Positions 2,568-39,132 of a stretch of DNA of 64,000 nucleotides are shown one piece after another. Under the pieces are notes generated by a model. That model searched no databases. It was not told the DNA's origin and was given only the letters and a program-made list of their open reading frames with translations. This stretch comes from a virus. Positions within the stretch are counted from its first letter, which is position 1. Each line of letters begins with the position of its first letter. Where the stretch lies: positions 44,198 to 108,197 of the IMG/VR virus record IMGVR_UViG_3300027969_000061; one strand, written 5' to 3'. Made by a program: the position numbers and the translations under genes.

Positions 2568-5500
2568 ATGCCGCTTAATTTTAATGTTGAACCATATTAT
2601 GATGACTTTGATCCTGCCAAAAATTATCACAGGATCCTATTCAAACCTGGTTTTGCCGTTCAAGCTCGTGAACTAACACAATCACAGACTATTCTACAAG
2701 ACCAAGTTACTAAATTTGCTGACAACATTTTTAAACAGAATACACCTGTAACTGGCGGACAATTAACAACCAATTTTCAATGTAGTTATATTAAACTACA
2801 AGAAACTTATAATAATGCAGCCATTAATGTTGATGAATTTAACAATAAAGTTATTCAAAATGCTTCTGGTTCAGTATTAGCCAAAGTTATTGCAGTTGTT
2901 GAAGCCACCGGTACAGGCGGTGCTGGTGATCCACCTACATTAATTGTTTCGTATAAATCAGGTGAACAGTTTCAAAGCAATGATGTTATCTATGACAATG
3001 GATCCAATCTGGCTGCACAAGCCATCAGCGCTAATGCTACAGGTTTAAGTTCAGCAGTTTCAATTGCACAAGGTGTGTTCTATGTTTCAGACAACTACAC
3101 AAGGTCTGATGGTATTACAATTTCTACTGGTGCATTTGTTCAAGTTAATCCTCAAACAATTGTTGTTGACAAATATGACAACACACCAACAAATCGTGTT
3201 GGTTTAAATATTACAGAAACAATTGTTGATTATGTTAATGATCCTTCTTTATTAGATCCTGCTATTGGTGCTTCTAACTATCAGGCGCCTGGTGCTGACC
3301 GATATAAAATTACTTTAACATTAGAAAGTCGTTCACTATCATTTGGTGACGATGATAGCTTTATTGAATTACTTCGTGTTGAAAATGGTCAGACTGTCAA
3401 GTTGGTTAATGAAACAGTTTACAATGTAATTGATGATTACTTTGCCAAGCGTACCAATGACACTAATGGTGACTTCATTGTTAATGATTATAATTTGACA
3501 CCAAAAGCCAATACAGTTAATTCTGCCGAATATGATTTAGGTATTTCAAAAGGTATTTCTTATGTTCGTGGATATCGTTTAGAAAATCAATCTGATGTAA
3601 CCCTAACAAACGACCGAGCAAGATTACAATCTGATGTAACCAACAATCCAACTTTTGTTGACTATGGTAACTATTTCTATGTCAATTCAGCCAATGGTGT
3701 ATTTGATGTTACAACTTCGCCTCAAATTGATTTTCACACAGTAGACAAAACAGCTATCGTAACAACAAATCAATCATCATACAATTCTACTCGTGCAGCT
3801 ACAGCTTATATTCGTAGCATGGTGTATGATAGCACATCAAACACAGCCAATGGTTCTGCATATGTTTATAAGGCGTATGTTTACAATATTCAAAATCAAA
3901 CATTATCAGCCAATGTTTCACAAATTGCACCAGTCAATGCAAACAATAGTTATATAAGATTGCCTAGTACCAATCAGTTTTCAAATGTGGCCAATGCCTA
4001 TACTGGAGTAACAGTCAGTATTGATTCAGGTACTTCTGCTGGTGATTTCAGAACAATTACAACCTACGATGCAGCTGCTAAAATTGCATATGTTGACCAA
4101 CCATTTACTGTAACATTGGCCAACAACTCGGTGTTTACTCTCCGTTTTGATACTACTGACTTTGAAACAATGATTAAGAGTACCTCTGGTACACCTTATT
4201 CTATTACAGCCAATGCTGCAATTAATAATTTAAATAAAGTAAACAATGTTGCAGAAGGTGATGTTGTTTTACAAAACCCAAATGCACCAGAACTATTGTT
4301 TACAATTGGTAACCCTTTTGTATCGTATGCAAACAATTCTTCATACACCACATCACAGGTGTTCCGTAATGTTTCGTTCACAACATCAGGCGGAAACATT
4401 GTTGCTCAACTAACATTTGGTTCTGCACCTACATCAACACTTCGTTTCTTAGGTAACGGCACATTATCATCTGATGCTGTGTCACAAAACTTTCAAATTA
4501 TTGTTACTAATCCATTATCAAGTGGATTAAGAGTTGGTCAATTGTTACCATGGAATCAAGGTAGTAGAACTTGTGCAATCACAGGTTCAGGTGGTACAGC
4601 TACATTCACAACACCAACATCTGATTTAGGTCCATTCACCGCAACAATCATTGCTAAGGCTTTTGTTAGTAATGGTAATGACACTAACTTTGTATTGAAA
4701 GCCAAAAATCTGGTTGAAGGTAATACAACAGGCGTAAACATTACAGGCACAACTGTTGAAACATATACCAAAGTTGATTTAACAAATGGTCAAGTGTATG
4801 TTGCAAATACTGGAATTGTTGCTCCTGGTCAACCACAAAAACTATACATTACAGATGCAAAACGTATAGTTAAAATTATTGATACAAAATCTCCTGGCAC
4901 AGCTGCAACAAATGCCATGTTGACCAATCCAATCTATGATGTTACATCTAGATTCACATTTGATAATGGTCAACGAGATTCATACTATGACTTCGCTAGT
5001 ATTACATTAGGCGTGGGTCAACCACAAATTGATGGTAATTTATTGGTTATATTAGATTACTATTCGACCACTGGTGGTGACGGATACTATTCTGTCATGT
5101 CTTATTTGTCACCAGTATCATCTGCACCAGAGAGTTATGCTGAGATTCCATCTTACATGGCTTCTAGTGGCAATTACTATCAGTTAAGAGATTCTTTGGA
5201 CTTTAGACCATCATTAATTAATGCTCAGAGTTCATTTATAATCCGGACTTCAAGTTCTGGTTCAGGTGCAGCAGGCGCATATATTCCTGTAGATTTAACT
5301 GAATTTGAATCTGATTATGGATTCTATCTTGGTCGTTTTGACAAATTAGTATTAAGTAAAGACCGTGCATTTGAAATTGTTCAAGGCACACCATCGACCA
5401 ATCCAATTCTACCAATTGAACCAGATGGTTCGTTGGTGATTGCAAATCTTTACCACGACCCATACACCGCATATATTCCAGGTGAAGCCACAGGTGTATT

Positions 5501-8500
5501 GCCAAGTTTATCTATTGAGCGTGTTAAACACAAGCGTTGGTTGATGCGTGATATTTCTGATTTAGAAACTCGTGTTAACAATATTGAATACTACACAGCA
5601 CTCAATATGTTAGAAAAAGGTGCATCTTCTTTACAGATTCCTGATGGTAACGGATTAAATCGTTTCAAAAATGGTATTTTAGTTGATGACTTCTCTAGTT
5701 ATGCTGCAGCTGATACTGCTAGTTCCGATTATTTGGCAACAATCAATCGTAGAACAAAACAGATGACTGCATCACAAGATGTGCAAAACTTCCCATTGCA
5801 ATCATTGTCACTAGTATATAATATGGGCCAGTTGGATGCTACAAGTGCAAACAATCTTGGTTATAATATTTCTCAGAGCTCTACATCAAACTTCTTTACA
5901 TTACCATACTCCACATCTAATGTGGTAACACAAAGAATTGCTTCACGCACAGTTAATTTAAACCCATTCTCTGTATCATTGAATTCTGGTGTATTAACAC
6001 TCAGTCCTCCAATGGACAATTGGGTTGATACACAAAAATCACCTGACCTGTTGATTGTAGATCCAAATTTACAAGTATATCGTGCAAGTGACCAAGTTAA
6101 TGTGTTACAAGTAGGTGATTGGAAAACAACTGTTGCAACATCAACCGATAATGTGGTTGCGGCTGGTCGTAACTGGCGTGTCAATCAGGTTACCACATAT
6201 ACAACAGAACAACAAAAGGTTGTGTTAGGTAACTACGACAAACTTAATTCGAGTTATGTTGAAACTGCTGGTTTCATTACTGATGTTAGTATTTTGCCAT
6301 ATATCCGTTCACAATTCTTATTCTTTAACACTTATGGTCTAACAGTTAATACCAATGTTAATGCGTATTTTGATGGTGTAAGTGTTAATAAGTATGTTCG
6401 CAAACCAAATATCATTGAATTGACCGGTGTAACTGGTTCATTTAAAGACGGTGATATTATTGGTTATTATTCTGCTGGTAATTTTAGACCTGCTGCCAAA
6501 GTTGTTTCTTACTATGTTAATCCAGCTGCCAATACAACTGCTCGCCTCTATGTTGTTGGTGATATTGTTGGTCAAACATTTACTGCGGGTGGCGTATTAC
6601 AAAATGCTCAATTTAATGCTGCTGGTCAATATCAGTCAACTACAGCACAAGGAACCATTGCATCGTTTAGACATAACTCTGGTCAAGTCGTTAATGCCAA
6701 TACATCAACATCTATTACATTAGGTGCCACAGCATCTACAACTGATATCTATACAGGTAACACAATTTATATTATTAATGGCACGGGTGTTGGCCAATCT
6801 GCAACTATTACTGCATACAATGGTGCAACTAAGTTGGCAAACCTAAGTTCTTCTATTACAACTGCCAATGGCGACATCTATTCAATTGGTACAATGAAAA
6901 CCAATGAAGCGGGTATGATTTCGGGTATCTTTGCATTACCAGGCGGAGTATTCCATACAGGTCAAAGAACATTTAGAGTTGATAACTCAATTGGTGGTAA
7001 TATTAGTTCTGCACAGACTTTTGCAGAGGCCACATTCTATGCTTCTGGTTTACAACAGACTAAACAAGGTGTAAACTATGCATCTTCAATTGACTCTGCC
7101 AAGAATACTTTCACACAAAGTAATGAAAGAACCAACATCACTTCTTATACTTACACAACAGTATGGGATCCAGTTGCACAAACATTTATTATTGATAAAG
7201 AAAACTATCCAAATGGTGTCTTTGTTGATTCAATTAAATTATTCTTTGCAACAAAAGCTGATGAGTTCTCACCAGTAACATTGTCTATTGTTGGTACACT
7301 AAACGGATATCCAAATGGTGAAACATTGGATAATTCTCAAGTTACATTGACATCAGAGAATATTAATGTATCAAGCAATCCACATTATTTGGATCCTACC
7401 ACATATACTGTGTTTAAGTTCCCAGCACCAGTATATTTGGAATCTAACAAATTATATGCTGTTATTGTAAAATGTCCAACATCTAATGATTACACAATTT
7501 ATACTGCACAAAATGGTGACACAGCAATTTCATCTTCTGTTAAGAATTTGCCAAGTGACCCAACACCAACAACAATAACAAAGATTAACTCTGCACCATA
7601 TGTTGGTTCATTATTCTTATCACAGAATTCACAAACATGGACTGCGGATCAAAACGAATCAATGATGTTTACAATGGATCGTTGTGTGTTCTCTGTTGGC
7701 ACTCAACCTACATTACAGTTTGTAGTGCCAAATCGTTTACCATATCGTAAATTAACAGAACAAGATATTTCATACTATCTAAGTCCAAACACGATTAATA
7801 CATCCATCTCCTCGGCAGCCAATACTAATGTGGTCGTTGATGCATTTAATATTTCAACATCTGACTTTGTGCCGGGTAGCACATCACTCAGTTACACATA
7901 TGGTGCCACATTAAATTCAACTAAGACAGCTGCACCAACACAGTCAGTTACTCCTGGTAAATATGGTACACCAATGTATGATGACATCTATCTAAATGAT
8001 GGATTAGGTGAGCGTGTATTGGCAGCTAACTCTAATACATCATTCTCATTGTATGCTAACATGACCACAGTAGATGATGCTGTGTCACCAATGATTTCAG
8101 ATGATGGATTAGGTGTATATACTATCACATGGAACATTAATAACTTAGAGTTATCTAATAGTATGATTACTGTGGCCAATGGTGGTTCTGGTTACAATGT
8201 CAATACAACTTCCGTAACCATTACATCTAATACAGGTACTGGTGCAACAGCAACTGCCAATGTAGTTGGTGGAATAATTAAGAACATTTATATTACAAAT
8301 GGTGGTTCTGGTTATGCAACAACACCAGTGATTACAGTTGCAGATGCCAACTCCTCACCAGGAATTGGTGCAACAGTTACAGTAGCAGGCGAAACATCAC
8401 CAGCTGGTGGTAACGGCCAAACACGATACATTACTAAGAAAGTTATTTTGGATCAAGGATTTGATTCAGGTGATTTACGAGTATACTTTACTGCTTATCG

Positions 8501-8831
8501 TCCAGTCAATACAAACATCTATGTTTACTATAAGATTCTTTCTAGAAGTGATACACAGACATTTGATTCAGGCAACTGGCAGTTAATGTCGTTAATTAAT
8601 AACACTAGTTCATTGTATTCACCAACAAGAGATAGCACTTATGAATTTGTAGCTGCACCTGGTGCTGATGGTGTTGCACAGAACTATGTTGAATATACTA
8701 GTGGTGTAACAGGTCAAACATACAACAATTTTAGTCAGTTTGCAATCAAGATTGTATTGGCAACATCTGATAAGACAGCAGTACCATTCTTATCAGATAT
8801 TCGTGCAATCGCTTTACCATCGGCGGTGTAA
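2568..8831 (+). CDS. Giant DUF4815-type virion structural protein
   Basis: 2087 residues, the largest gene in the window. The N-terminus (YYDDFDPAKNYHRILFKPGF) is the hallmark of the DUF4815 family, found in large structural proteins next to baseplate genes in marine T4-like phages. The rest is Thr/Ser/Asn/Val-rich and beta-repetitive. Near residues 1872 and 1912 are two GGSGY motifs in a repeat related to one inside gp8. The C-terminus contains a sheet-like segment (KVILDQGFDSGDLRVYFTA) and ends in FLSDIRAIALPS. No enzymatic motif was recognised. Position between gp8 and fibre genes suggests a baseplate-peripheral or fibre-anchoring role; that role is inferred, the family match is fairly sure. 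Confidence 0.8.
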   Translation: MPLNFNVEPYYDDFDPAKNYHRILFKPGFAVQARELTQSQTILQDQVTKFADNIFKQNTPVTGGQLTTNFQCSYIKLQETYNNAAINVDEFNNKVIQNASGSVLAKVIAVVEATGTGGAGDPPTLIVSYKSGEQFQSNDVIYDNGSNLAAQAISANATGLSSAVSIAQGVFYVSDNYTRSDGITISTGAFVQVNPQTIVVDKYDNTPTNRVGLNITETIVDYVNDPSLLDPAIGASNYQAPGADRYKITLTLESRSLSFGDDDSFIELLRVENGQTVKLVNETVYNVIDDYFAKRTNDTNGDFIVNDYNLTPKANTVNSAEYDLGISKGISYVRGYRLENQSDVTLTNDRARLQSDVTNNPTFVDYGNYFYVNSANGVFDVTTSPQIDFHTVDKTAIVTTNQSSYNSTRAATAYIRSMVYDSTSNTANGSAYVYKAYVYNIQNQTLSANVSQIAPVNANNSYIRLPSTNQFSNVANAYTGVTVSIDSGTSAGDFRTITTYDAAAKIAYVDQPFTVTLANNSVFTLRFDTTDFETMIKSTSGTPYSITANAAINNLNKVNNVAEGDVVLQNPNAPELLFTIGNPFVSYANNSSYTTSQVFRNVSFTTSGGNIVAQLTFGSAPTSTLRFLGNGTLSSDAVSQNFQIIVTNPLSSGLRVGQLLPWNQGSRTCAITGSGGTATFTTPTSDLGPFTATIIAKAFVSNGNDTNFVLKAKNLVEGNTTGVNITGTTVETYTKVDLTNGQVYVANTGIVAPGQPQKLYITDAKRIVKIIDTKSPGTAATNAMLTNPIYDVTSRFTFDNGQRDSYYDFASITLGVGQPQIDGNLLVILDYYSTTGGDGYYSVMSYLSPVSSAPESYAEIPSYMASSGNYYQLRDSLDFRPSLINAQSSFIIRTSSSGSGAAGAYIPVDLTEFESDYGFYLGRFDKLVLSKDRAFEIVQGTPSTNPILPIEPDGSLVIANLYHDPYTAYIPGEATGVLPSLSIERVKHKRWLMRDISDLETRVNNIEYYTALNMLEKGASSLQIPDGNGLNRFKNGILVDDFSSYAAADTASSDYLATINRRTKQMTASQDVQNFPLQSLSLVYNMGQLDATSANNLGYNISQSSTSNFFTLPYSTSNVVTQRIASRTVNLNPFSVSLNSGVLTLSPPMDNWVDTQKSPDLLIVDPNLQVYRASDQVNVLQVGDWKTTVATSTDNVVAAGRNWRVNQVTTYTTEQQKVVLGNYDKLNSSYVETAGFITDVSILPYIRSQFLFFNTYGLTVNTNVNAYFDGVSVNKYVRKPNIIELTGVTGSFKDGDIIGYYSAGNFRPAAKVVSYYVNPAANTTARLYVVGDIVGQTFTAGGVLQNAQFNAAGQYQSTTAQGTIASFRHNSGQVVNANTSTSITLGATASTTDIYTGNTIYIINGTGVGQSATITAYNGATKLANLSSSITTANGDIYSIGTMKTNEAGMISGIFALPGGVFHTGQRTFRVDNSIGGNISSAQTFAEATFYASGLQQTKQGVNYASSIDSAKNTFTQSNERTNITSYTYTTVWDPVAQTFIIDKENYPNGVFVDSIKLFFATKADEFSPVTLSIVGTLNGYPNGETLDNSQVTLTSENINVSSNPHYLDPTTYTVFKFPAPVYLESNKLYAVIVKCPTSNDYTIYTAQNGDTAISSSVKNLPSDPTPTTITKINSAPYVGSLFLSQNSQTWTADQNESMMFTMDRCVFSVGTQPTLQFVVPNRLPYRKLTEQDISYYLSPNTINTSISSAANTNVVVDAFNISTSDFVPGSTSLSYTYGATLNSTKTAAPTQSVTPGKYGTPMYDDIYLNDGLGERVLAANSNTSFSLYANMTTVDDAVSPMISDDGLGVYTITWNINNLELSNSMITVANGGSGYNVNTTSVTITSNTGTGATATANVVGGIIKNIYITNGGSGYATTPVITVADANSSPGIGATVTVAGETSPAGGNGQTRYITKKVILDQGFDSGDLRVYFTAYRPVNTNIYVYYKILSRSDTQTFDSGNWQLMSLINNTSSLYSPTRDSTYEFVAAPGADGVAQNYVEYTSGVTGQTYNNFSQFAIKIVLATSDKTAVPFLSDIRAIALPSAV

Positions 8832-16450: not shown

Positions 16451-17026
16451 ATGAGAGGTGAATGGTGTTATTTTGGGAAGTATTTTACTCCCGAGCAGTG
16501 CAGTAGAATATTAGAAAATGGATTAAAAATACCGGCACAAGACGCCAAGTTAGGCGTTGCCGGTATGAATGATTATAGTAATGATTCGTTCCGCAAATCC
16601 AAAATCCGTTTTATTCAATCTGATAACCCCGATTTTAAGTGGCTCTTTGATGAGTTATTAAAAATGGGTATGCAGGCCAATAAAGATTGGTTCAATTTTC
16701 ATATTACCAATCTATCATATATTCAATTAGCCGAATACGATGAATCATATCAAGGTGAATACAAGAAACACCATGATGTGTTTTGGGTAAACAATGATAG
16801 TTACCATCGTAAACTTACCTGTGTAATTCAACTTACAGACCCATCAGAGTATGAGGGTGGTGACCTAGAGTTGTTTGAACTATCTGAATATCCAAACAAA
16901 GACGAACTACGCCAGCAAGGCACAGCAATCTTCTTCCCGTCTTTTATTCCACATCAAGCACATCCAGTAACAAAAGGTAAACGATATAGTATTGCAGTAT
17001 GGTTTGAAGGAGATAAGTGGAAATGA
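16451..17026 (+). CDS. 2-oxoglutarate/Fe(II)-dependent dioxygenase, prolyl-4-hydroxylase-like
   Basis: 191 residues, a compact single-domain enzyme. The iron-binding triad is visible: H107-x-D109 (KKHHDVFW) and H168 in FIPHQAHPVTKGKRYS, with R178 of the same segment placed to bind 2-oxoglutarate. YEGGDLEL (134-141) is the usual conserved turn between them. This layout fits the prolyl-hydroxylase-like subgroup that hydroxylates protein side chains; the substrate is not shown by the sequence. The 3' end overlaps the glycosyltransferase start (ATGA), so the two are translationally coupled. Neighbouring collagen-like fibres, starting 1.2 kb downstream, are attractive substrates (inference). Relatives are common in marine T4-like phages. 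Confidence 0.88.
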   Translation: MRGEWCYFGKYFTPEQCSRILENGLKIPAQDAKLGVAGMNDYSNDSFRKSKIRFIQSDNPDFKWLFDELLKMGMQANKDWFNFHITNLSYIQLAEYDESYQGEYKKHHDVFWVNNDSYHRKLTCVIQLTDPSEYEGGDLELFELSEYPNKDELRQQGTAIFFPSFIPHQAHPVTKGKRYSIAVWFEGDKWK

Positions 17027-18159
17027 GATTTCATATTTTAGGATTACCCCATACTGTATCATCAAAAGAATATAATGCGTGTGCATATACTCAGAAAGTG
17101 GTTAAATTTGGTAAGATGATGACTGAAAGAGGTCATGAAGTGATTCATTATGGCCATGAAGAATCGGACTTACCATGCACAGAACACGTTACTGTATTGT
17201 CTACTGAAGATTGGAAGAAAACATATGGTGACCATGACTGGCGTAAACACTTCTTTAAGTTTGACACCAACGACCATGCATATCAAACTTTCTATCGTAA
17301 TGCTATTGAAGAAGTAGGTAAACGCAAACAAAAGAATGACTTTATTCTTCCGTTTTGGGGTTCAGGTACTCGACCAGTCTGTGATGCACATCCAGATTTA
17401 ATCTGTGTAGAACCAGGAATTGGTTATGCAGGTGGCCATTGGGCACGATTTAAAATCTTTGAATCTTATGCCATCTATCACGCATACTATGGACTAGATT
17501 CAGTAGGTACTTGTAAGCAAGACTGGTACGATGCAGTTATTCCAAACTACTTTGACCCCGAAGATTTTGTATATACACCAGAGGAGAAAGAAGATTACTT
17601 TCTATTTCTAGGTCGTGTATATGAGGGTAAAGGAGTTAATATTGCGGTACAGGCAACTGAAGCCATTGGTGCCAAGTTAATTATTGCCGGACAGAACTCA
17701 CTCAAAGATATGGGTTACAAAGAAGTACCATCTCATGTTACTGAAATTGGTTATGCGGATGTGGAAACTAGAAAGAAGTTGATGTCCAAAGCCAAAGGTG
17801 CATTTGTGGCATCGTTATACACCGAACCTTTTGGAGGCGTTCAGGTCGAGTGCCTTTTCTCAGGTACGCCTACGATAACAACTGATTGGGGTTCGTTCAC
17901 GGAGAACAATATCCATGGTGTTACGGGGTATAGGTGCAAGACCTTTGAACAGTTTACTTGGGCAGCTAAGAATATTGACAACATTAAACCACAAGCCTGT
18001 AGGGACTTCGCACTAAATAACTTTAGTCTGGATGTGGTAGCACAGAAATATGAAGAATATTTTCAGTCAGTATTAAATGTTTATAATGGTGATGGATGGT
18101 ATGAAAAGAATGATAACCGGACCGAATTGGACTGGTTAACCAAATATTATCCTGCCTAA
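17023..18159 (+). CDS. Glycosyltransferase, GT-B fold, family 4-like
   Basis: 378 residues from the ATG at 17023, which overlaps the preceding TGA and has AAGGAG 10 bases upstream; a GTG six bases earlier is too close to that site. The C-terminal half has retaining GT4 hallmarks: FLFLGRVYEGKGV (193-206) at the start of the nucleotide-sugar domain, and the E268-x7-E276 motif in TEPFGGVQVE, followed by SGTPTITTDWG. The N-terminal half (GLPHT, HEVIHYGHEE) would be the acceptor domain. It is cytoplasmic with no membrane segment seen. Coupling to the dioxygenase and position beside fibre genes suggest glycosylation of virion proteins; glycan and acceptor are unknown. Confidence 0.88.
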   Translation: MRFHILGLPHTVSSKEYNACAYTQKVVKFGKMMTERGHEVIHYGHEESDLPCTEHVTVLSTEDWKKTYGDHDWRKHFFKFDTNDHAYQTFYRNAIEEVGKRKQKNDFILPFWGSGTRPVCDAHPDLICVEPGIGYAGGHWARFKIFESYAIYHAYYGLDSVGTCKQDWYDAVIPNYFDPEDFVYTPEEKEDYFLFLGRVYEGKGVNIAVQATEAIGAKLIIAGQNSLKDMGYKEVPSHVTEIGYADVETRKKLMSKAKGAFVASLYTEPFGGVQVECLFSGTPTITTDWGSFTENNIHGVTGYRCKTFEQFTWAAKNIDNIKPQACRDFALNNFSLDVVAQKYEEYFQSVLNVYNGDGWYEKNDNRTELDWLTKYYPA

Positions 18160-18162
18160 ATA
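18156..18162 (+). promoter_or_regulatory. Late-promoter-like box (CTAAATA)
   Basis: CTAAATA lies 34 bases upstream of the TTG start at 18197, at the head of the large collagen/C1q fibre array. It overlaps the preceding stop codon. Within the following 25 kb I found no equally well-placed box until 43384. Confidence 0.45.
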
Positions 18163-18196
18163 TAATATAAACCAACCTTGGGGAAAGTGAACCGAA

Positions 18197-19336
18197 TTGG
18201 CAACCAGCTCAAACTTTGTCGTTAAAAATGGCCTATCCGTAGGCGCAAATGCCGTTATTGCAGCTAACGGTGCGTGGATTGGTGCCAACACAAACCTCAT
18301 CGGTGCAACTGGTCCTACAGGTGCCACAGGTCCACAAGGTGCAACTGGTTTTGGTGCTACTGGTGCTACAGGTATTATTGCACCTTGGATTTATATCACA
18401 TCTACAACCTCTGCGGTTGCAAATACTCAATATATCGCCAATACTGTTGGTGGTTCTTTCACTCTCACACTTCCATCTACACCAGTTTTAGGTACAACCA
18501 TTGTTGTTACTGATGGTGGAAATTGGGGTAATAATAATCTCACAATCGGTCGTAACGGAAAAACAATTGAAGGTGATGCTTCTGATTTAATCTGTGATGT
18601 AGGTCAGACAACTATTCAGTTAATCTATGATAACATTACATGGCAGACAACTGCAACTATTGGTTCAAAAGGTGCTACTGGTATTACTGGTGCAACTGGT
18701 GTGCCGGCTGCATGGGCATATATCACAGCTAATACAAATGCTGGTGCCAACTCTCAATACATTGCTAATACAACAGGCGGTGCGTTTACATTAACACTAC
18801 CTGCAACACCAGTAATTGGCACAACAGTAACAATTACCGATGGTGGTGATTGGGGTGTAAACAATTTAACTATTGCAAGAAATGGTTCTACAATTGAAGG
18901 TGTTGCTGATAATGTGGCGTTGAATCTTCCGTCAACATTAGTATACTTCATATATACTGGTACAACTTGGCAAGTAGTTACGACTGCTGGTTCACAAGGT
19001 GCCACAGGCGTTACTGGTCCAACAGGACCTTCAGGCACAAATGGTGCCACAGGTTTAACCGGACCAACCGGTCCTACAGGTCCTACCGGTCCAACAGGAC
19101 CTACAGGTGCTACAGGTGCAGGCGCAACAGGTGCCACAGGTCCTGCCGGTCCATCAACAGTATCTTCAGGTGTAATTACTCTTTCAAGTTCTACACCATT
19201 TGTTTTAAATGCCAACACAATTACGGCAGATTACACAATTCCTGGTGGTTACAATGCCTTCAATGCTGGTCCAATGACTATTGCTACTGGTGTGAATGTA
19301 ACGATTGCTACTGATGCTAATTGGGTAATCATTTAA
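18197..19336 (+). CDS. Collagen-like fibre with two copies of a beta domain and a VGPI-type tip
   Basis: 379 residues, starting at TTG 18197: an in-frame TGA at 18188 excludes anything further upstream, and the N-terminus [18 protein letters not shown] matches the ATG-started proteins at 23222 and 27100. Layout: N-terminal anchor (1-35); short collagen-like tract (36-59); beta domain (63-155); collagen-like linker (157-169); second copy of the beta domain (172-264); collagen-like tract (266-320, mostly GPT and GAT triplets); C-terminal module (340-379, [20 protein letters not shown]) shared with at least four genes downstream. Collagen-like tracts form triple helices, fitting a trimeric fibre. 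Thr in the Y position dominates. Confidence 0.85.
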
Positions 19337-19345
19337 GGATAAAAT

Positions 19346-19726
19346 ATGGCCGGCACATTAACATTAGACACATTAAAAACAAGCTCAGGAGTTCTTGCAA
19401 CTCAGAATGGCATGACTGGTATTGCTAAGGCATGGGTAAATTTTTCTGTTGCAGGATCGGCTTGTTCTGTAGTTTCTTCCTTTAATGTTTCTTCTGTTAC
19501 ATACAATTCAGCTGGAAATTTTACTATTAATATGACAACTGCAATGCCAAATGCAAATTATACAGCAATAATAGGATCAGTAAATACTTTTGGAAGTGGT
19601 GTTTATTACGGAACTGGTGTTTTTGGAACCAATACTACAAGTAGTTTTAGTATGAGGATGGTTGGTGGTAATGGCAGTTATATTGATGGATTAAATAACG
19701 GTTATGCAGCAGTGTTCAGTTCATAA
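19346..19726 (+). CDS. Small fibre/adhesin protein, KAWVNF family
   Basis: 126 residues. It begins MAGTLTLDTLKTSS, like the next gene, and contains the pattern KAWVNF...FNVSSVT...NFTINMTTAMPNANYTAI, a beta-rich domain that recurs in the genes at 19736 and at the end of 21087. These domains are frequent as tip domains of phage fibres; the exact ligand is unknown. AAGGATAA precedes the ATG. It lies 9 bases after the collagen-like fibre and could form its tip or a separate short fibre. Confidence 0.65.
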   Translation: MAGTLTLDTLKTSSGVLATQNGMTGIAKAWVNFSVAGSACSVVSSFNVSSVTYNSAGNFTINMTTAMPNANYTAIIGSVNTFGSGVYYGTGVFGTNTTSSFSMRMVGGNGSYIDGLNNGYAAVFSS

Positions 19727-19735
19727 GGATAAACA

Positions 19736-20131
19736 ATGGCAGGCACACTAACTCTCTCAACATTATCTGATGGTACAAATAGTACCTCAGCAACTAATGC
19801 CATTCAAGGTTCTGCAAAGGTTTGGGTAAATTTTAACGGCACAGGCACAGTAGCTATTAGGGCTTCTTATAATGTATCTAGCATTACTGACAACGGCACA
19901 GGCAACTACACAGTTAATTTTACAAACGCTTTAACCGATGCTAACTATGCAGTTCATGTAACAGGCACAGAAAATAATACTGGTGAGATTGCTCGTATTG
20001 CCACTGTTTACGGGGACGCAAGCACAGGTGCTTCAGGCAAAACATCAAGTGCAGTAAGAGTAGTTTTTGGTGCATCAAACGCCGCTACTTTTTTTGATTC
20101 TGCCGAAATGAATGTAACTTGTTTTAGATAA
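19736..20131 (+). CDS. Small fibre/adhesin protein, KAWVNF family (paralogue)
   Basis: 131 residues, a diverged tandem paralogue of the gene just upstream: same start (MAGTLTLSTLSDG) and same core, AKVWVNFNGTG...YNVSSITDNGTGNYTVNF...DANYAVHV. The core is also the C-terminal domain of the collagen-like protein at 21087. AAGGATAAAC precedes the start. Adjacent paralogues with moderate divergence suggest an old duplication kept for different receptor specificity (inference). Confidence 0.65.
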   Translation: MAGTLTLSTLSDGTNSTSATNAIQGSAKVWVNFNGTGTVAIRASYNVSSITDNGTGNYTVNFTNALTDANYAVHVTGTENNTGEIARIATVYGDASTGASGKTSSAVRVVFGASNAATFFDSAEMNVTCFR

Positions 20132-20148
20132 TTTATAAAGGAAAAAAA

Positions 20149-20568
20149 ATGACACAAGTAATTATTTTTACAAACGACAATGGTGGTGTATCAGTATGCA
20201 CACCAACAGGCGAATTGCCAATCGAAGCCGTGTTAGCAAAAGATGTACCAGAAGGTCGTGGTGCTAAGATTGTTAGTAACACAGATTTACCAAACGAACA
20301 CAATGATTTCTTCAATGCTTGGGAAATGGATGATGACGGTGTTGTTACTGTTAGTCTTACCAAAGCAAAAGAACTCACTAAGGCAAGACTTCGTTTAGAA
20401 AGAACACCTTTGTTGACTGCACAAGATGTGTTATATCAACGTGCTCAAGAAGCTAATGCTGATACTACAGCAATTGTTGCCGAGAAGAACAGACTTCGTG
20501 ATATTACTTTGTTAGCTGATGCAGCAACAACTTTAGCTGCACTAAAAGCAATCTCAGTAGAGGCCTAA
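20149..20568 (+). CDS. Possible fibre assembly protein
   Basis: 139 residues, unlike the surrounding beta-rich fibres. The N-terminal half is a small mixed domain (VIIFTNDNGGVSVCTPTGE, then a DVPEGRGAKIV segment); the C-terminal half is helical and charged (TKARLRLERTPLLTAQDVLY, followed by an AEKNRLRDIT segment). The segment RLERTPLLTAQDV resembles the end of phage tail-fibre assembly chaperones, where a short R-x-x-x-L-L-x-x-(T/S)-D motif is typical, but the match is loose. It would act in the cell to help fibre trimerisation rather than be in the virion. Strong AAGGAA precedes the ATG. Confidence 0.5.
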   Translation: MTQVIIFTNDNGGVSVCTPTGELPIEAVLAKDVPEGRGAKIVSNTDLPNEHNDFFNAWEMDDDGVVTVSLTKAKELTKARLRLERTPLLTAQDVLYQRAQEANADTTAIVAEKNRLRDITLLADAATTLAALKAISVEA

Positions 20569-20572
20569 TAAA

Positions 20573-21076
20573 ATGTCAGTCACCATTTCTGGTAGTGGAC
20601 AAATTGTAAAACAGATTCAACAGACTGTTGTTACAACTGGATCTTTTACTTCTACATCCACATCAATGGTGGACATTACCGGTATGTCTGTAAATATTAC
20701 ACCTAGTAATGTTGCAAACAAAGTATTGATTACTGTATGCATGACTTATGCACAACAGTCCAACTATAATGTGGCATTTCAATTGTTAAGAAATGGAACT
20801 CCTGTAGGTATTGGCACAAGCGGAACAACAGGACCAAATTATTCTTTTATTGCTTCGCCTGCTGGAACAAATACTCCAAGTAATGTTAATTGGACTTTTT
20901 TAGATTCACCATCTTCAACTTCTGCACTCACATATAAAATACAATGTAGGCAACAACTTGGTGGTGCAGGAACATTTGCATTAAATTTTGCAAACGGATA
21001 TTTAAATGCCACTGCTGATGTATATGGTGGTTGTTATACGTCAACAATCACGGCACAAGAAATAGCATACGCTTAA
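20573..21076 (+). CDS. Fibre/adhesin beta protein, 'STS-TGL-ITP' family
   Basis: 167 residues. It shares with the genes at 35095, 38291 and 39142 a core of the form FxSTSTxxVxxTGxxxxITP, a later (L/Y)DSPxSTSALTYK and a C-terminal ITAQEIAYA (the others end in EIAA). Cysteine residues near the end (RCQ, GGCY) are unusual for fibre proteins but intracellular-type folding makes disulfides unlikely. It is a beta-rich domain with no catalytic motif and presumably a short adhesin or fibre tip. It starts 4 bases after the previous stop. Confidence 0.6.
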   Translation: MSVTISGSGQIVKQIQQTVVTTGSFTSTSTSMVDITGMSVNITPSNVANKVLITVCMTYAQQSNYNVAFQLLRNGTPVGIGTSGTTGPNYSFIASPAGTNTPSNVNWTFLDSPSSTSALTYKIQCRQQLGGAGTFALNFANGYLNATADVYGGCYTSTITAQEIAYA

Positions 21077-21086
21077 ATAATAACAA

Positions 21087-22142
21087 ATGACAATACTACA
21101 AAGTTCTATCGCAAGTAATGTAATCTCAGGAGCCACAGGTGCCACAGGTCCTTCTGGTTCTAATGGTACCAATGGAGCTACTGGTGCAACTGGTGCATCA
21201 CCATGGTCATTGAGTGGCTCAGATACATATTACACGGTTGGTAATGTAGGTATTGGTACTACTAGTCCTGCAAGCAAATTAGATGTAAAAGCTGGTACTG
21301 GCTCTGTAATTTCTCGTTCTACTAGCGGTACAAACTTTAAAGCGTTTTACGATGATGGTAGAACTACTTACACTTCTGTAAATTATGATGGCCTTTCTAC
21401 AACAGGAGCGCAAGATTTATTGCTTAATGCTGGAACTACTGCTTCACAAAATATGTTGTTTAGAACTGCTGACACAGAACGGATGCGTATTACTTCTGCT
21501 GGCGAATTGGGCGTTGGTGTAACTCCTAAAGCTTGGACCAATATTAAGTCAATTAGTTATGGGCAAAACGGTGCAGTTTATGGTGATGGTGCTAGTTATT
21601 CTTGGGCTTCTGGTATAGCTCAGAATAGTTACAACGAAACAAACGCATGGAAATATATTGCTTCAGGTTATTCTGCTAATAGATATGAACTTTCTGGTGA
21701 TAATGGAAGTCATGTTTGGTACACCGCTGGGTCAGGCACAGCAGGCGGCACTATTAGTTTTACGGAACAAGGGCGTTTTACTAGCGCAGGTGTTTTTCAG
21801 TTTAATTCAGGTTACGGTTCATCCGCTGCAGCATATGGTTGTCGTGCATGGGTTCATTTTACTGCAAGTAATGGCACAAGAAACGGTTCAGGAAATGTAA
21901 GTTCTGTAACCAGAAATGGCACGGCTGACTACACAGTAAATTTTGCTACTGCAATGCCAGATGGTAATTATGCAATTACCGGTTGTTTAAAACCAACTTC
22001 AGGTCAAACAGGTAATAATGCTCGAGATGTTCATGTAGCAGCAGAAACAGGTGCAAGCACATCTTCATTTAGAATTAGAACTGTTACTGCTGGTGCTGGT
22101 TTTGAAGAACCGGAATATGTTTATGTAGCAGTATTCAGATAA
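21087..22142 (+). CDS. Collagen-like fibre with VGIGTTSP module and KAWVNF tip
   Basis: 351 residues. The N-terminus ([20 protein letters not shown]) leads straight into a short collagen-like tract (about 14-37). Next comes a module with NVGIGTTSPASKLDV, a segment typical of phage fibre shafts ahead of tip domains, and ERMRITSAGELGVGVTP. The C-terminal about 95 residues are a KAWVNF-type domain (CRAWVHFTASNGT, YTVNFATAMPDGNYAI) as in the genes at 19346 and 19736. So the small proteins upstream look like the detached tip of this longer fibre. No S74 chaperone is present. Confidence 0.75.
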   Translation: MTILQSSIASNVISGATGATGPSGSNGTNGATGATGASPWSLSGSDTYYTVGNVGIGTTSPASKLDVKAGTGSVISRSTSGTNFKAFYDDGRTTYTSVNYDGLSTTGAQDLLLNAGTTASQNMLFRTADTERMRITSAGELGVGVTPKAWTNIKSISYGQNGAVYGDGASYSWASGIAQNSYNETNAWKYIASGYSANRYELSGDNGSHVWYTAGSGTAGGTISFTEQGRFTSAGVFQFNSGYGSSAAAYGCRAWVHFTASNGTRNGSGNVSSVTRNGTADYTVNFATAMPDGNYAITGCLKPTSGQTGNNARDVHVAAETGASTSSFRIRTVTAGAGFEEPEYVYVAVFR

Positions 22143-22151
22143 AAATAAAAA

Positions 22152-22790
22152 ATGACCTCATTAAGTAACTTAATATCTTCTGCAATCTCTGGTGCCACAG
22201 GTGCCGTAGGTCCTACTGGTCCCACAGGACCAAATGGTGCATCTGGTCCAGCCGGTCCTACAGGTCCATTAGGACCAACTGGTGCAACAGGCGTAACTGG
22301 TCCTACAGGACCAACTGGTGGTCAAGGTGCCACAGGTGTTACAGGTCCTACGGGTCCATTAGGACCTACAGGACCAGCTGGTGCTACTGGTCCTGCCGGT
22401 TCTGTTGGAGTTACATCCCTTAACGGACAAACTGGTGCAATTACTAATACAGACATAGATGCTATTGGTAGTGTGATTGTTGCGGTGTATGCTATTAATG
22501 CTCCTAGCACAGCACCAGGGACATATGGATGGCAAACAACTAATGCAAATACTACAGTTGCGGGTTCAAATTTACGCTATAACTTTACTATACCTACATA
22601 TACAGAAGTTGCGGGAATTAGAAGTTGGTATACAAAAAACGTAGGTAGTAATTCGCCAAGTTATAACGGTGGCGGCACATCGCTTTCAGGAACTTGGAGA
22701 ACTTTAAGTTATGAAAACAGATTTGGTTCAGAAGGTGACGGTAATTGGAGTTTTAGTTGGAATCCAGTATTATGTGTAAGAGTTTCTTAA
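22152..22790 (+). CDS. Collagen-like fibre with short C-terminal domain
   Basis: 212 residues. After a short N-terminal anchor ([14 protein letters not shown]), residues 14-84 are an almost pure collagen-like tract of Gly-X-Y triplets, mainly GPT and GAT. Then [11 protein letters not shown], a linker found in many phage fibre proteins, and a C-terminal domain of about 110 residues (for example [19 protein letters not shown] and [14 protein letters not shown]) that I cannot assign. The N-terminal anchor resembles those at 21087, 35872, 38761 and 41455. AAGGATAAAATA follows and leads into the next gene. Confidence 0.75.
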
Positions 22791-22802
22791 AAGGATAAAA
22801 TA

Positions 22803-23066
22803 ATGTTTACTATTCAATATGTTAAAGATTTGCAATGGTGTGATACAGAACACACTTTTTTTACTTGCGTTGCTAAATACGAAGAATTTAACGAAGAACA
22901 TCCAACTGGTGTAAATGCAACTGACCATTATGCTCATATACAAGAAATTTGGGCTAAAGGTAATGCAGGCGAATATGGGGTAATTGCTGAATACATACCG
23001 CCACCACCTGAAATCCCACCACTTCCTGATCCCGTAGTAACACCTGAACCGCCTGTTTTGGAGTAA
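22803..23066 (+). CDS. Small Pro-rich-tailed protein
   Basis: 87 residues. The N-terminal about 65 residues are a small mixed domain rich in aromatic residues (MFTIQYVKDLQWCDTEHTFF). The last 20 residues are an extended proline-rich tail (PPPPEIPPLPDPVV and following), likely unstructured and possibly a docking peptide. No family recognised. It lies between two collagen-like fibres with a ribosome-binding AAGGATAA, and is probably a fibre accessory. Confidence 0.5.
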   Translation: MFTIQYVKDLQWCDTEHTFFTCVAKYEEFNEEHPTGVNATDHYAHIQEIWAKGNAGEYGVIAEYIPPPPEIPPLPDPVVTPEPPVLE

Positions 23067-23068
23067 AT

Positions 23069-23215
23069 ATGGTTTATCCTAACTCTACACCTGAATTTCG
23101 CATTGTTGTAAAGCAAAATGGTTCAGAAGAACTACAAGTGCGGTATATAAATTCAGCAATGGGTTACACAGGCAAATGGATGCCGGTAAAAATAGAAAAA
23201 GAAAAAGTAGAATAA
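23069..23215 (+). CDS. Small 48-residue protein
   Basis: 48 residues, read from the ATG at 23069, two bases after the previous stop, to TAA at 23213-23215. Sequence begins MVYPNSTPEFRIVVKQNGSE and ends in a Lys/Glu-rich tail (VKIEKEKVE). Pattern: two or three beta strands followed by a charged tail. The short gap, in-frame start and snug fit between two genes support a real gene, though there is no recognisable homologue and no clear ribosome-binding site because it may be coupled to the gene before. Confidence 0.5.
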   Translation: MVYPNSTPEFRIVVKQNGSEELQVRYINSAMGYTGKWMPVKIEKEKVE

Positions 23216-23221
23216 TAATAA

Positions 23222-24130
23222 ATGGCAACTAATTCAAACTTTAAAATCAAGAATGGCCTGACAGTCAACACGACTGATGTTATTGCTGCCAACGGAGCTT
23301 GGATTGGTATTGCTACAAACTTAGTAGGTGGCACAGGCGCAACAGGTGTTACAGGTCCTACAGGTGCGACAGGCGTTCAAGGACTTTTAGGGCCCACAGG
23401 TCCTACTGGTGCCACGGGTATTACGGGTTCAACAGGACCAGATGGTCCAACCGGCCCAACCGGTTCTACAGGACCAACAGGTCCATTAGGTGCAACTGGT
23501 CTAACAGGACCACAAGGTGCGACAGGCGTTACTGGTCCATCAGGTCCAGTCGGTTCAACAGGTATCACAGGACCTACTGGTCCTACAGGCCCAGCCGGTC
23601 CTACTGGTGCAACTGGTGGTTTGCAAGCTTGGCTTGTAATTACTGCTAATACAGCTGCATCAGGCAACACACAATATATTGCTAACACAGCTGCTGGTTC
23701 ATTTACATTAACATTACCTGCAACACCAAACATTGGTTCAACAGTTGCTGTTGCCGATGGTTACAGTTGGGGTGCCAACAATTTAGTTGTAGCACGCAAT
23801 GGTTCTACTATTGAAAGAGTTGCAGATGATATCTCTCTCAATATTACAAACAGTTTAGTTTATTTTGTATACACAGGCGACACATGGCAGGTTGTATCTA
23901 CTGCTGGTCCTGCCGGTGCAACTGGTGCTACAGGTGCAAATGGTAGTAATGGTGCTTCTGGTGCCACAGGTCCTGGTGGTTCATATACTGGATTTGTAAT
24001 TCACACAGATACTATTCAAGCAAACACAACGATTGCTTCAGGCAATAATGCCTTGTCTGTTGGACCAATCACACAAGCAAACAATGTCACAGTAACTCTT
24101 GCTAGCGGTCAACGCTGGATAGTAATCTAA
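23222..24130 (+). CDS. Collagen-like fibre with beta domain and VGPI tip
   Basis: 302 residues. Layout: anchor (1-36, [18 protein letters not shown]), the longest collagen-like tract here (37-133, about 32 Gly-X-Y triplets, mostly GPT and GAT, with single GPD and GPQ), one copy of the QYIANT/STIE-type beta domain (136-228), a second collagen-like stretch (230-253) and the C-terminal module (264-302, [19 protein letters not shown]). The arrangement is the same as in the 18197 protein but with one beta domain. Both the anchor and the collagen DNA are similar enough to 27100 and 18197 for recombination. Confidence 0.85.
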
Positions 24131-27099: not shown

Positions 27100-27909
27100 A
27101 TGGCAACTAATTCAAACTTCATAATTAAAAATGGCCTGACAGTAGGCGCTAATACTGTTATTGCCGCTAACGGTATGTGGGTTGGTGCCAACACAAATTT
27201 AGTAGGTGCCACAGGTATTGCTGGTCCAACAGGACCTACAGGTCCACAAGGTTCAACAGGTCCTGCCGGTCCAACTGGTGCAACAGGTACTATTACCGCA
27301 TGGACTAGAGTTACTGCCAATACAAATCTTACAGCCAATGCACAATACATTGCTGATACATCTGGTGGTCCTTTTACTGTAACACTACCAGCAACTCCAT
27401 CTTTAGGAACTATTGAAGTTATTTCTGATGGCGCTGCATGGGGTAATAACAATCTGACAGTTGCTCGTAATGGTTCTACTATTGAAGGACAGGCACAAGA
27501 TTTAATATTAAATATTTCAACTAGTTTAGTGTATTTAATTTATGATGGCACTACTTGGAATCTTACTTCGACTGCTGGTCCACAAGGTGCCACCGGTCCT
27601 TTAGGTCCTACTGGACCAACAGGTGCGACTGGTGCAGGTTCTACTGGTGCCACCGGTTCTACTGGACCTGGAGGTCCTGCCGGTCCATCCGGTCCAACAG
27701 GTCCAACTGGTGCAACAGGTGCTTTTTCTGGCACGACAGCAGCACAGATTATAACAACAAACACAACTGCAGCTACTTCTAATATAACCGGTTCTATTAT
27801 TGGTGCTGGTGGTTTAGGTGTTTCAGGTAATGTTTATGCAGATGCAGTTTATTCTGGTGGTCAAGAAGTTATTGGAACAAGTCTAGCCTTTTCAATTGCT
27901 TTGGGGTGA
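27100..27909 (+). CDS. Collagen-like fibre with beta domain, no VGPI tip
   Basis: 269 residues. Layout: anchor (1-36, MATNSNFIIKNGLTVGANTV), collagen-like tract (37-63), beta domain (67-159, with QYIADTSGG and [10 protein letters not shown]), second collagen-like tract (160-208, [18 protein letters not shown] and so on) and a C-terminal segment (210-269, IIGAGGLGVSGNVYADAVY) that matches a segment in the 38761 protein (TVAGGVGVTGNVWVDTVV) rather than the VGPI tip. The gene ends 3 bases before a homing endonuclease gene; the missing tip may reflect disruption there (inference), but the ending looks like an intact domain. Confidence 0.8.
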   Translation: MATNSNFIIKNGLTVGANTVIAANGMWVGANTNLVGATGIAGPTGPTGPQGSTGPAGPTGATGTITAWTRVTANTNLTANAQYIADTSGGPFTVTLPATPSLGTIEVISDGAAWGNNNLTVARNGSTIEGQAQDLILNISTSLVYLIYDGTTWNLTSTAGPQGATGPLGPTGPTGATGAGSTGATGSTGPGGPAGPSGPTGPTGATGAFSGTTAAQIITTNTTAATSNITGSIIGAGGLGVSGNVYADAVYSGGQEVIGTSLAFSIALG

Positions 27910-35871: not shown

Positions 35872-36495
35872 ATGCAATATCAAAGTTTCGTTGCTGGGTC
35901 AGGAATATCAGGTGCTACCGGTCCAACCGGTGCTACTGGTGTCATTGCACCGTGGACAAGAATCTCCGCAAATACAAGTGCTTCGGCTAATACACAGTAT
36001 CTAGCCAACACAGCAACTGGTGCCTTCACTCTAACATTACCAGGTACACCATCAGTTGGTGTTATGGTAGTGATTGCTGATGATTATAACTTTGGTGCAA
36101 ACAATCTTTTTGTTGCAAGAAATGGTTCTACTATTCAAGGCATTGCTGATGACTTAGGTATTAACATCAGCAACTCATTGACAACATTGATTTATGATGG
36201 TACTACTTGGAGAGTTTCTACAAATGCTGGACCACAAGGTGCAACTGGTGCCACAGGTCCTACAGGAACTTCTGGTACCAACGGTGCCACAGGTGCTACC
36301 GGTTTAGGTGCTACTGGTGCTACTGGTGCCAGTTTGTTTGCTGATTCCAATAATGTTATTTTTTTAAATAATACGTTGATTACTTCTAACACAACATTGC
36401 AACCAGGTCGTGGTGCATTTTCTGTTGGACCAATCTCTGTTAATACAGGTGTTCAACTTATTGTTTCATCTAACACAAGGTATGTGGTACTATGA
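35872..36495 (+). CDS. Collagen-like fibre with beta domain and VGPI tip
   Basis: 207 residues. Anchor (1-13, [16 protein letters not shown]), short collagen-like segment (14-24), beta domain (27-119, with TQYLANTATG and [10 protein letters not shown]), collagen-like tract (121-153, with GAT and GPT triplets) and C-terminal module (170-207, FSVGPISVNTGVQLIVSS). A compact form of the same design as 18197 and 23222 but with the second type of N-terminal anchor. The stop (TGA) overlaps the next gene's ATG. Confidence 0.82.
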   Translation: MQYQSFVAGSGISGATGPTGATGVIAPWTRISANTSASANTQYLANTATGAFTLTLPGTPSVGVMVVIADDYNFGANNLFVARNGSTIQGIADDLGINISNSLTTLIYDGTTWRVSTNAGPQGATGATGPTGTSGTNGATGATGLGATGATGASLFADSNNVIFLNNTLITSNTTLQPGRGAFSVGPISVNTGVQLIVSSNTRYVVL

Positions 36496-38294: not shown

Positions 38295-38764
38295 CAACGA
38301 CTATTGACGGTAATTCAGGAGTTATATTTCCAAATAACACTACACAAGCTAGTGCTGGTCAAGTGTTGCAGGTGGTTAATGGCACTTATTCAGGCCCCTA
38401 TTTTTCAACAACAAGTACCACTTTTGTATCTACTGGATTAACGGTAACTATTACACCTAAGTTTGTTACAAGTAAAATTTTATTACTTTTACAAGTTGAA
38501 GTTTATAATGATACAGCAAATAAAGGTGGTGATTTAACCATTTATAAAAATGGTGCAAATTTAGCCTCAGGTTTATTAGGAAGAATGTATCCTATTTCTG
38601 GTCAATTAGCTATTAATATTCCTATTAATTATTACGATTCGCCATCAACAACATCAGCAACAACTTATACACTTTATATTAAAACAACAAATGCTGGATA
38701 TGCTTTCAATGCTTTTCAAGATGCTTTTCCATCAACAATTACTGCATTGGAAATAGCAGCATGA
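38291..38764 (+). CDS. Fibre/adhesin beta protein, 'STS-TGL-ITP' family
   Basis: 157 residues. Landmarks: GNSGVIFPNNTTQASAGQVL (near-identical to the opening of 39142), FSTTSTTFVSTGLTVTITPK, YYDSPSTTSATTYTLYI and the end STITALEIAA. It is closely related to 39142, from which it is separated by one collagen-like gene. Coupled to its neighbours by ATGA overlaps on both sides. Confidence 0.68.
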   Translation: MTTTIDGNSGVIFPNNTTQASAGQVLQVVNGTYSGPYFSTTSTTFVSTGLTVTITPKFVTSKILLLLQVEVYNDTANKGGDLTIYKNGANLASGLLGRMYPISGQLAINIPINYYDSPSTTSATTYTLYIKTTNAGYAFNAFQDAFPSTITALEIAA

Positions 38765-39132
38765 CAATATACTTAGGGCAAATTGCTGGTTCTGGAATAT
38801 CTGGTGCAACCGGTCCTACAGGTCCAACTGGACCATCTGGTGCTACTGGTGTATTTCCAACAAGCAGTTCAGCTAACTTAGCAATCACTAATGCCAATAC
38901 ATCAACATCAAATACTACTGGTGCTCTGACTGTTGCAGGTGGTGTAGGTGTTACAGGTAATGTATGGGTAGATACTGTTGTTGTTACGAATGGTTTGATA
39001 CTTAATTCTAACACAATAAATAGAAGTTATACAGTACCAGACAATTACAATGCTGGTTCATTTGGTCCAATCACAGTAGCAAACTCTGCGATTGTTACAG
39101 TACCAAGTGGTTCAATTTGGACCGTGGTTTAA
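38761..39132 (+). CDS. Short collagen-like fibre with VGPI-type tip
   Basis: 123 residues, the shortest collagen-like protein here. Anchor ([16 protein letters not shown]), a collagen-like tract of only about six triplets (14-31), a segment STSNTTGALTVAGGVGVTGN related to the end of 27100, then the C-terminal module (SYTVPDNYNAGSFGPITVAN and the end SGSIWTVV). It lacks the beta domain. It looks like an internal deletion derivative of the longer fibres, or a minimal adhesin. Confidence 0.72.
   Translation: MTIYLGQIAGSGISGATGPTGPTGPSGATGVFPTSSSANLAITNANTSTSNTTGALTVAGGVGVTGNVWVDTVVVTNGLILNSNTINRSYTVPDNYNAGSFGPITVANSAIVTVPSGSIWTVV

Follow-up and report, generated by a model that had tools for sequence, protein, structure and literature searches.

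A dioxygenase-glycosyltransferase gene pair beside collagen-like fibre genes: a candidate fibre-maturation cassette of tailed phages

Here we present an analysis of a 64,000-nucleotide stretch of viral DNA (hereafter the window; bases 44198-108197 of a 108-kb virus record, IMGVR_UViG_3300027969_000061) and of a gene pair within it, which encodes a prolyl 4-hydroxylase (P4H)-like 2-oxoglutarate (2OG)-Fe(II) dioxygenase, designated OX, and a GT4-type glycosyltransferase, designated GT4. The pair lies directly upstream of a series of collagen-like fibre genes, and the original prediction for this region had proposed that the phage encodes its own fibre-modification system. Across related phages, OX and the OX+GT4 pair proved to be tied to collagen-like fibres, and the residues of those fibres matched the enzymes beside them; this much of the proposal stands, while GT4 by itself was found to be nonspecific.

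OX is a protein of 191 residues encoded on the + strand at 16451..17026 (coding 16451-17023, stop 17024-17026), with a match to PF13640 (E 5e-18). All of H107, H108, D109, H168 and R178 are present, in agreement with the active-site pattern (H107-x-D109, H168, R178) originally read from the translation, and H107, D109, H168 and R178 are unchanged across 18 of 18 aligned homologues. We take H107, D109 and H168 to be the HxD...H iron triad and R178 to be the basic 2OG-binding residue. The AlphaFold (AF2) model of OX (predicted local distance difference test score, pLDDT, 89) has prolyl hydroxylases as its closest folds. The top match is a P. putida P4H in complex with EF-Tu (Z 19.7, root-mean-square deviation 2.9 over 180 residues), followed by an algal P4H with a (Ser-Pro)5 peptide (Z 18.9), PHD2 with a HIF peptide (18.7) and the PBCV-1 collagen prolyl hydroxylase (18.1), with PiuC (17.1) and LH3 (15.7) lower; matches less than 1 Z apart count as tied. 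By its predicted structure, then, OX is a 2OG-Fe(II) dioxygenase of the prolyl 4-hydroxylase fold. Elsewhere in the phage record, beyond the window, PF13640 has a second, weaker match (G000:C1:19308-19562).

GT4 follows on the same strand at 17023..18159 (stop 18157-18159; PF00534 1e-15), overlapping OX, as had been predicted, by the four bases ATGA. The ATG at 17023 was chosen as the start over an alternative GTG at 17017 because the homologues begin MRFHILG. E270 and E278, presumably the paired glutamates of the EX7E motif, are unchanged in 19 sequences. The best structural matches to the AF2 model (pLDDT 82) are glycosyltransferases, the first in Foldseek being the alpha-1,2-glucosyltransferase Tll1591 (E 1.4e-19); since this is the closest fold, UDP-glucose may be suggested as the donor, which is a guess drawn from the model. 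GT4 is the sole PF00534 match in the whole phage record and a near full-length member of the PHROGs family phrog_3408 (7e-191), which is annotated as glycosyltransferase only and filed, without a substrate, under moron, auxiliary metabolic gene and host takeover.

The first collagen-like open reading frame (ORF) starts at a TTG at 18197, adjacent to the pair as expected, although the distance is 37 bases past the GT4 stop instead of the 40 first given. Eight + strand ORFs carry unbroken Gly-X-Y runs of 7 to 31 triplets. Four were scanned with PF01391 and all passed its cut-off, namely fibre 1 (18197..19336, run 14, Pfam Collagen 1e-9), fibre 3 (22152..22790, run 14, 3e-11), fibre 4 (23222..24130, run 31, 5e-16) and fibre 5 (27100..27909, run 10, 4e-10); the remaining four were called from repeats alone, namely fibre 2 (21087..22142, run 8), fibre 6 (35872..36495, run 8), fibre 7 (38761..39132, run 7) and fibre 8 (41455..42954, run 16). 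The count of eight fibres in the original prediction is thus correct, with four inside the region 16451-24130 on which it was made and the others starting at 27100, 35872, 38761 and 41455. Runs of at least 7 triplets occur in 8 of the 234 stop-to-stop ORFs of at least 60 residues on both strands, and in 0 of 500 residue shuffles of these 8 collagen-like ORFs. Thr occupies the Y position in 100 of the 156 triplets of the window (runs of at least 4) and Pro in just 1; at the X position there are 70 Pro and 50 Ala, in line with the predominance of GPT and GAT noted earlier. Animal P4H targets the Y-position proline; with a single Y-Pro in 156 triplets and proline found mainly in X, the animal-like hydroxylation of Y-proline that had been offered as an analogy fits poorly and is rejected for the window.

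To place the pair in a wider context, viral contigs were searched, yielding 80 GT4 loci (kept from 205), 41 OX loci and 75 control loci anchored on DUF4815, the family of a large structural-region protein in the window. A PF13640 search of S-CAM7 and of 49 among the 80 GT4 records gave matches in 24 of these 50. Anchors flanked by at least 3 kb on either side were scored as linked when a same-strand collagen-like ORF of at least 6 unbroken triplets lay within 5 kb; near-identical anchors were collapsed, and distinct loci are those collapsed via shared k-mers. A collagen-like ORF was found near the OX+GT4 pair in 16 of 17 distinct loci and near OX in 23 of 26, including 5 of 5 in which OX accompanies the fusion gene described below and 2 of 4 with neither GT4 nor fusion. 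Near GT4 without OX the figure was 11 of 25, and GT4 alone was dropped as a collagen marker. In the DUF4815 control, a collagen-like ORF occurred anywhere on the + strand in 10 of 75 loci. Of these loci 49 were used, 29 having at least 5 kb downstream, and 6 of the 29 were positive over up to 10 kb on one side, as against 5 kb on both sides for the pairs (Fisher test against 16/17, p 1e-6); removal of L141, L157 and L173, which lie on contigs common to the test set, leaves 4 of 26. The two genes are also close to each other, with a gap of at most 14 bases in 33 of the 38 loci that have both (duplicates included) and of about 560 in the other 5. Of the 48 contigs from a later OX search (52 minus 4 already used), 23, among them near-duplicates, extend at least 3 kb to either side, and 20 of these carry a same-strand tract of at least 8 triplets within the DNA covered, which reaches up to 10 kb in each direction. 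Co-occurrence across related phages had been named in advance as one of the checks on the proposal, and for OX and for OX+GT4 the enzymes are found mainly with collagen-like fibres. The tie to the tracts lies with OX, which is often present where GT4 is absent.

The surroundings of GT4 relatives are more varied. Among five divergent relatives (30-47% identity), those in L124, L353 and L356 adjoin collagen-like ORFs, and those in L354 and L355 have none alongside (with only 3.6 kb available around L355); a closer relative, L352 (75%), has none within 15 kb. Two weak phage matches, H52 and H53, stand outside this comparison. In phages S-CAM7 and ACG-2014f, GT4 lies near a different 2OG oxygenase (adjoining in ACG-2014f, with one gene between in S-CAM7), and both loci stand among collagen-like genes with Y-Thr. 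Many of the later OX loci without GT4 (several of L381-L401, with fibres of Y-Gln plus Y-Thr, GAQ and GPT) have a gene for a 184-residue protein next after OX. The one examined, in L381, matches DUF6445, and it is possible that this protein is a further fibre-modifying enzyme.

A second type of cassette was found in the Synechococcus phages S-PRM1, S-CAM9 and S-8S55, in which an OX orthologue (47-49% identity) is followed, with a 4-base overlap, by a gene for 613 to 621 residues annotated as hypothetical or as a 2OG-oxygenase-domain protein. In S-PRM1 (L125:10555-12399; also L126, L127), this fusion protein contains GT25 (PF01755, 5e-29) and PLOD glycosyltransferase (PF25342, 9e-46) domains, and in sequence its residues 4-204 match COLGALT1, 227-417 the glucosyltransferase domain of LH3, and 441-604 lysyl hydroxylase; mimivirus R699 is a further match. 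EDD 93-95, D284, D287, H540, D542 and H587, acidic and histidine residues which we expect to matter, are unchanged in 7 aligned copies. The fusion matched 12 records of the phage collection, several of them copies of a single phage; in 11 the match spans most of the protein, and Roseobacter phage CRP-6 (L357:10130-11899, 43% identity) is among the 12. The S-PRM1 protein matches phrog_61 over nearly its entire length, a family named only 2OG-Fe(II) oxygenase. Beside the fusion in S-PRM1, S-CAM9 and S-8S55, the fibres run to 55-59 uninterrupted triplets, in which GQK and GPK abound alongside GPT. The PF25342 model exceeded its cut-off in 13 of 21 related records and gave no match in the window's 108-kb record, possibly a fragment, in a search whose own controls were silent; a model built from the phage fusions likewise had no match in the window or the remainder of its record. 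The analogy to hydroxylysine glycosylation drawn in the original prediction finds its place in these relatives and not in the window. Immediately upstream of the OX orthologue, L125 has a further 2OG oxygenase gene (L125:9393-10004), as do L126 and L127 at the corresponding position.

The fibre residues were then compared with enzyme content, restricting the counts to loci with a run of 8 triplets and dropping tract-less loci. Two backgrounds were drawn from DNA-pattern scans of at least 120 stretches each, 80 of each being listed: a Gly-Pro-x pattern, blind to Y, with 87 distinct enzyme-free loci among the matches listed, and a Gly-x-Thr pattern, blind to X, with 71 (L411-L474 plus 33 earlier loci) among the matches listed. 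Many background loci are short, so that enzymes past their ends would escape notice. Since the Gly-Pro-x pattern itself selects X-proline, the Gly-x-Thr background was used for that residue. Two loci from the Gly-Pro-x scan, L295 (fusion) and L328 (OX alone), were moved to the enzyme classes, where they bias X-Pro upwards.

At the Y position, Lys reached at least 10% in all 10 distinct fusion loci (9 with OX, median 0.37) and in 0 of 39 GT4 loci, compared with 15 of the 87 loci among the matches listed in the first background (fusion against background, p 4e-7). In 1,359 pooled triplets from fusion loci, duplicate loci included, Lys makes up 35% of Y and 0% of X, and in a final recount each of the 25 fusion loci of 38 with a tract had Y=Lys of at least 0.18 and X=Lys of 0. 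Median Y=Thr was 0.76 in GT4+OX loci and 0.55 in GT4-only loci, with 0.22 in the first background (among the matches listed); in the pooled triplets of OX+GT4 loci, duplicate loci counted, Thr accounts for 65% of Y and 3% of X. At the X position, median Pro was 0.50 for OX+GT4 (18 loci), 0.46 for OX+fusion (9), 0.67 for OX alone (3) and 0.09 for GT4-only (21), the 30 distinct OX loci differing from the 21 GT4-only loci with p 2e-7. The 17 later OX loci, collapsed among themselves and not against the first set (some resemble L098), had a median X=Pro of 0.56 against 0.25 in the 71 loci among the matches listed in the second background (p 1e-7). Median Y-Pro was 0 to 0.02 in first-set OX loci. 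Chance or composition as the main driver is ruled out by the shuffles and by the confinement of Lys to Y in fusion loci and of Thr to Y in OX+GT4 loci. In these data, enzyme content goes with the choice of X and Y residues across phages. Separately, the collagen-like fibres of L181, L183 and L189 have mainly Gln at Y, along with some Lys, and the DNA covered there gave no OX, GT4 or fusion match; such fibres may be unmodified collagens or be served by unknown enzymes.

The genomic association of the enzymes with the fibres is well supported, and from the anatomy, conserved active sites, predicted folds, linkage and residue match we infer the substrates, products, sugar and benefit, as follows. 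OX and GT4 would be translationally coupled. OX most likely hydroxylates the X-position prolines of Gly-Pro-Thr in nascent, unfolded fibre chains, and the likeliest role of GT4 is to transfer a hexose, perhaps glucose from UDP-glucose, to the Y-threonines of the same tracts; the trimer would then fold into a stiffer, more stable, sugar-coated collagen-like shaft. A passage in PMC3368898 mentions, with a citation, glycosylated threonine as a collagen stabiliser. We regard such a fibre-maturation cassette, with OX acting on X-proline and GT4 on Y-threonine, as the probable function of the pair. In the relatives, the fusion in the place of GT4 would hydroxylate Y-lysine and add two sugars, Y-lysine replacing much of the Y-threonine. 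The broader proposal, for which we put the chances at about even, is that tailed phages carry interchangeable collagen-maturation cassettes obeying an enzyme-to-residue code (OX for X-proline, GT4 for Y-threonine, and the three-domain galactosyltransferase-glucosyltransferase-lysyl hydroxylase for Y-lysine), such that fibre and enzymes co-evolve.

Several observations weigh against these proposals. GT4 has no collagen-like tract within 5 kb in 14 of the 25 distinct OX-less loci, some of them in non-fibre surroundings, so that its standing as a marker of collagen-like fibres is lost. OX and GT4 occur together in L010 and its duplicate L093 without a tract in the 21 kb around L010, where the record has weak collagen matches about 20 kb upstream. 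The OX loci L109 and L111 have no tract nearby on the OX strand, their records having collagen matches elsewhere, and none was found for the later OX loci L363, L373 and L404. Of the 38 fusion loci, 13 lack a tract of 8 triplets, 12 of these having less than 3 kb on one side, and L224 has none on its strand despite at least 3.4 kb on both sides. The residue match also has exceptions: L113 carries OX and the fusion with X=Pro of 0.02, and S-CBWM1 (L124), whose GT4 shows 32% identity and whose record lacks a PF13640 match, has X=Pro of 0.52. In 4 of the 17 later OX loci, Y-Pro is 0.15 to 0.30, so that activity on Y-Pro is possible there. The enrichment of X-Pro could be a structural need of those fibres instead of the mark of a substrate. 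Finally, phrog_61 holds both OX and the lysyl-hydroxylase part of the fusion, from which it follows that the target residue of OX may be other than proline.

An unlikely alternative, though the one that fares best, is that GT4 alters the host surface, namely the lipopolysaccharide O-chain, against co-infection, the fibre neighbourhood being a plastic host-recognition island. Part of PMC7029224 describes a hypervariable host-recognition cluster, from VrlC to gp14, with fibres and glycosyltransferases, the latter read as O-chain modification. The layout of the window's island resembles that cluster, and the frequent distance of OX-less GT4 from collagen-like tracts agrees with such a role. However, it leaves unexplained the 4-base coupling to OX, the excess of linked pairs over the DUF4815 control and the lack of Y-Lys-rich fibres at GT4 loci, and three of the five divergent GT4 relatives adjoin collagen-like ORFs.

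It is quite unlikely, in our assessment, that cassette and fibre type are merely co-inherited, with no enzyme-substrate relation. The fusion has few independent gains and the GT4+OX loci belong mostly to one lineage, which would suit such hitch-hiking. In phylogenetic regression on the GT4 tree (39 loci) and the OX tree (30 loci), there was no clear link of Y-Thr with OX on the former (p 0.08 at best lambda, 0.18 under Brownian motion), and the link of Y-Lys with the fusion on the latter (p 7e-11) depends on about two evolutionary changes; both points weaken the case for a residue code. Against hitch-hiking, the association of X-Pro with OX persists on the GT4 tree (p 0.0014; with L012 left out, because its contig begins at the GT4 gene and an upstream OX would be cut off, p 0.0002 under Brownian motion), and Lys is limited to Y in fusion loci. 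Two contrasts run in the expected direction as well. L115, one of the roughly two changes on the OX tree, branches from within the fusion loci; its 43.9-kb record yields no PLOD match, and its Y=Lys is 0.01, Gln standing there instead. In CRP-6, which lies outside that tree, a fibre gene with 97 triplets precedes the fusion with one gene between them, and the sole PF13640 match in the record lies inside the fusion, so that OX is absent; Y=Lys is 0.27, X=Lys 0 and X=Pro 0.06. L432, a Gly-x-Thr pattern match, repeats these values (0.24, 0 and 0.05) and is probably a close relative of CRP-6, its fibre ORF being of equal length with much the same triplets. L295, also a pattern match, combines an OX-like gene with the fusion and shows Y=Lys of 0.25 and X=Pro of 0.37.

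More doubtful still is a role for OX on another host or phage protein, such as EF-Tu, or in shifting 2-oxoglutarate for nitrogen regulation. The P. putida P4H that is its best fold match was crystallised with EF-Tu, which makes a non-fibre substrate possible and counts against the fibre as target. Furthermore, a passage of PMC3037559 reports cyanophage 2OG oxygenases in 14 of 16 surveyed genomes, interprets them as metabolic and proposes that they modulate 2-oxoglutarate and NtcA. A metabolic role would not predict the ties of OX to fibres in both the first and the later set, nor to X-proline. That OX and GT4 make a hypermodified DNA base, like TET/JBP-type dioxygenases with glycosyltransferases, is highly improbable: phage 2OG dioxygenase and glycosyltransferase pairs acting on DNA are known, but OX is a PF13640 protein of prolyl-hydroxylase fold, the record has no Tet_JBP match (in a search whose controls were equally silent), and gene position and residue correlation favour fibres.

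The proposed cassette of OX and GT4 has counterparts in known systems. Animal collagen maturation (P4H, PLOD/LH3, COLGALT1) likewise uses a hydroxylase and glycosyltransferases on Gly-X-Y, and the fusion in the relatives carries COLGALT-, LH3-glycosyltransferase- and lysyl hydroxylase-like domains, like the animal enzymes. The bacterial collagen-like protein BclA of the Bacillus exosporium, the repeats of which are rich in GPT, is glycosylated, as proposed here for the phage fibres, and Bacillus also has a prolyl 4-hydroxylase. According to passages of a review (PMC8968730), the Bacillus P4H hydroxylates X and Y prolines of synthetic peptides with a preference for Y; neither phage enzymes nor a gene pair of this kind appear in those passages. 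Mimivirus encodes both collagens and modifying enzymes, with L230 a lysyl hydroxylase and glucosyltransferase and R699 a galactosylhydroxylysyl glucosyltransferase, as given in part of PMC9546862. The likeness extends to the fusion in OX relatives, which matches R699 and LH3 in sequence. Mimivirus, however, infects amoebae, whereas these are tailed phages, and the window's pair consists of a P4H-fold enzyme and GT4 with fibres mainly of Y-Thr, not Y-Lys. Mycobacteriophages also place glycans on their own virion (Freeman 2023, cited in PMC12619734), in their case on the C-termini of capsid and tail-tube proteins and not on collagen-like fibres, and the citing passage names no hydroxylase partner. 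In a passage of PMC3368898, on phage-borne collagen-like proteins, bacteria and viruses are said to lack the prolyl hydroxylases needed for the Y-position proline of the collagen helix. No report of a phage PLOD or of phage collagen hydroxylation was found among the papers listed in the literature searches, subscription papers being mostly outside their reach.

The fibre island of the window is bounded on the left by the large DUF4815 protein (phrog_358; 2568..8828, + strand), the anchor family of the control set, and on the right by head-tail adaptor and head-closure genes (43418..45106, + strand; phrog_211, phrog_460), with tail sheath and portal genes downstream. A GIY-YIG/NUMOD3 homing endonuclease gene is inserted in the island at 27913-28602. 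A fibre ORF at 25077-25994 ends in a C-terminal chaperone-of-endosialidase (Peptidase_S74) domain, and another at 28944-30245 resembles it by eye.

Taken together, the comparisons suggest that phages may finish their own collagen much as animals do. If so, many unexplained phage dioxygenases and glycosyltransferases would be fibre-maturation enzymes, and small enzymes would be on offer for modified recombinant collagen. Phage fibres would bear hydroxylated, glycosylated collagen, and sequence alone would be insufficient to read host recognition. It would also establish a bacterial-virus counterpart of animal collagen biosynthesis, present in isolated phages such as S-PRM1, S-CAM9 and CRP-6.

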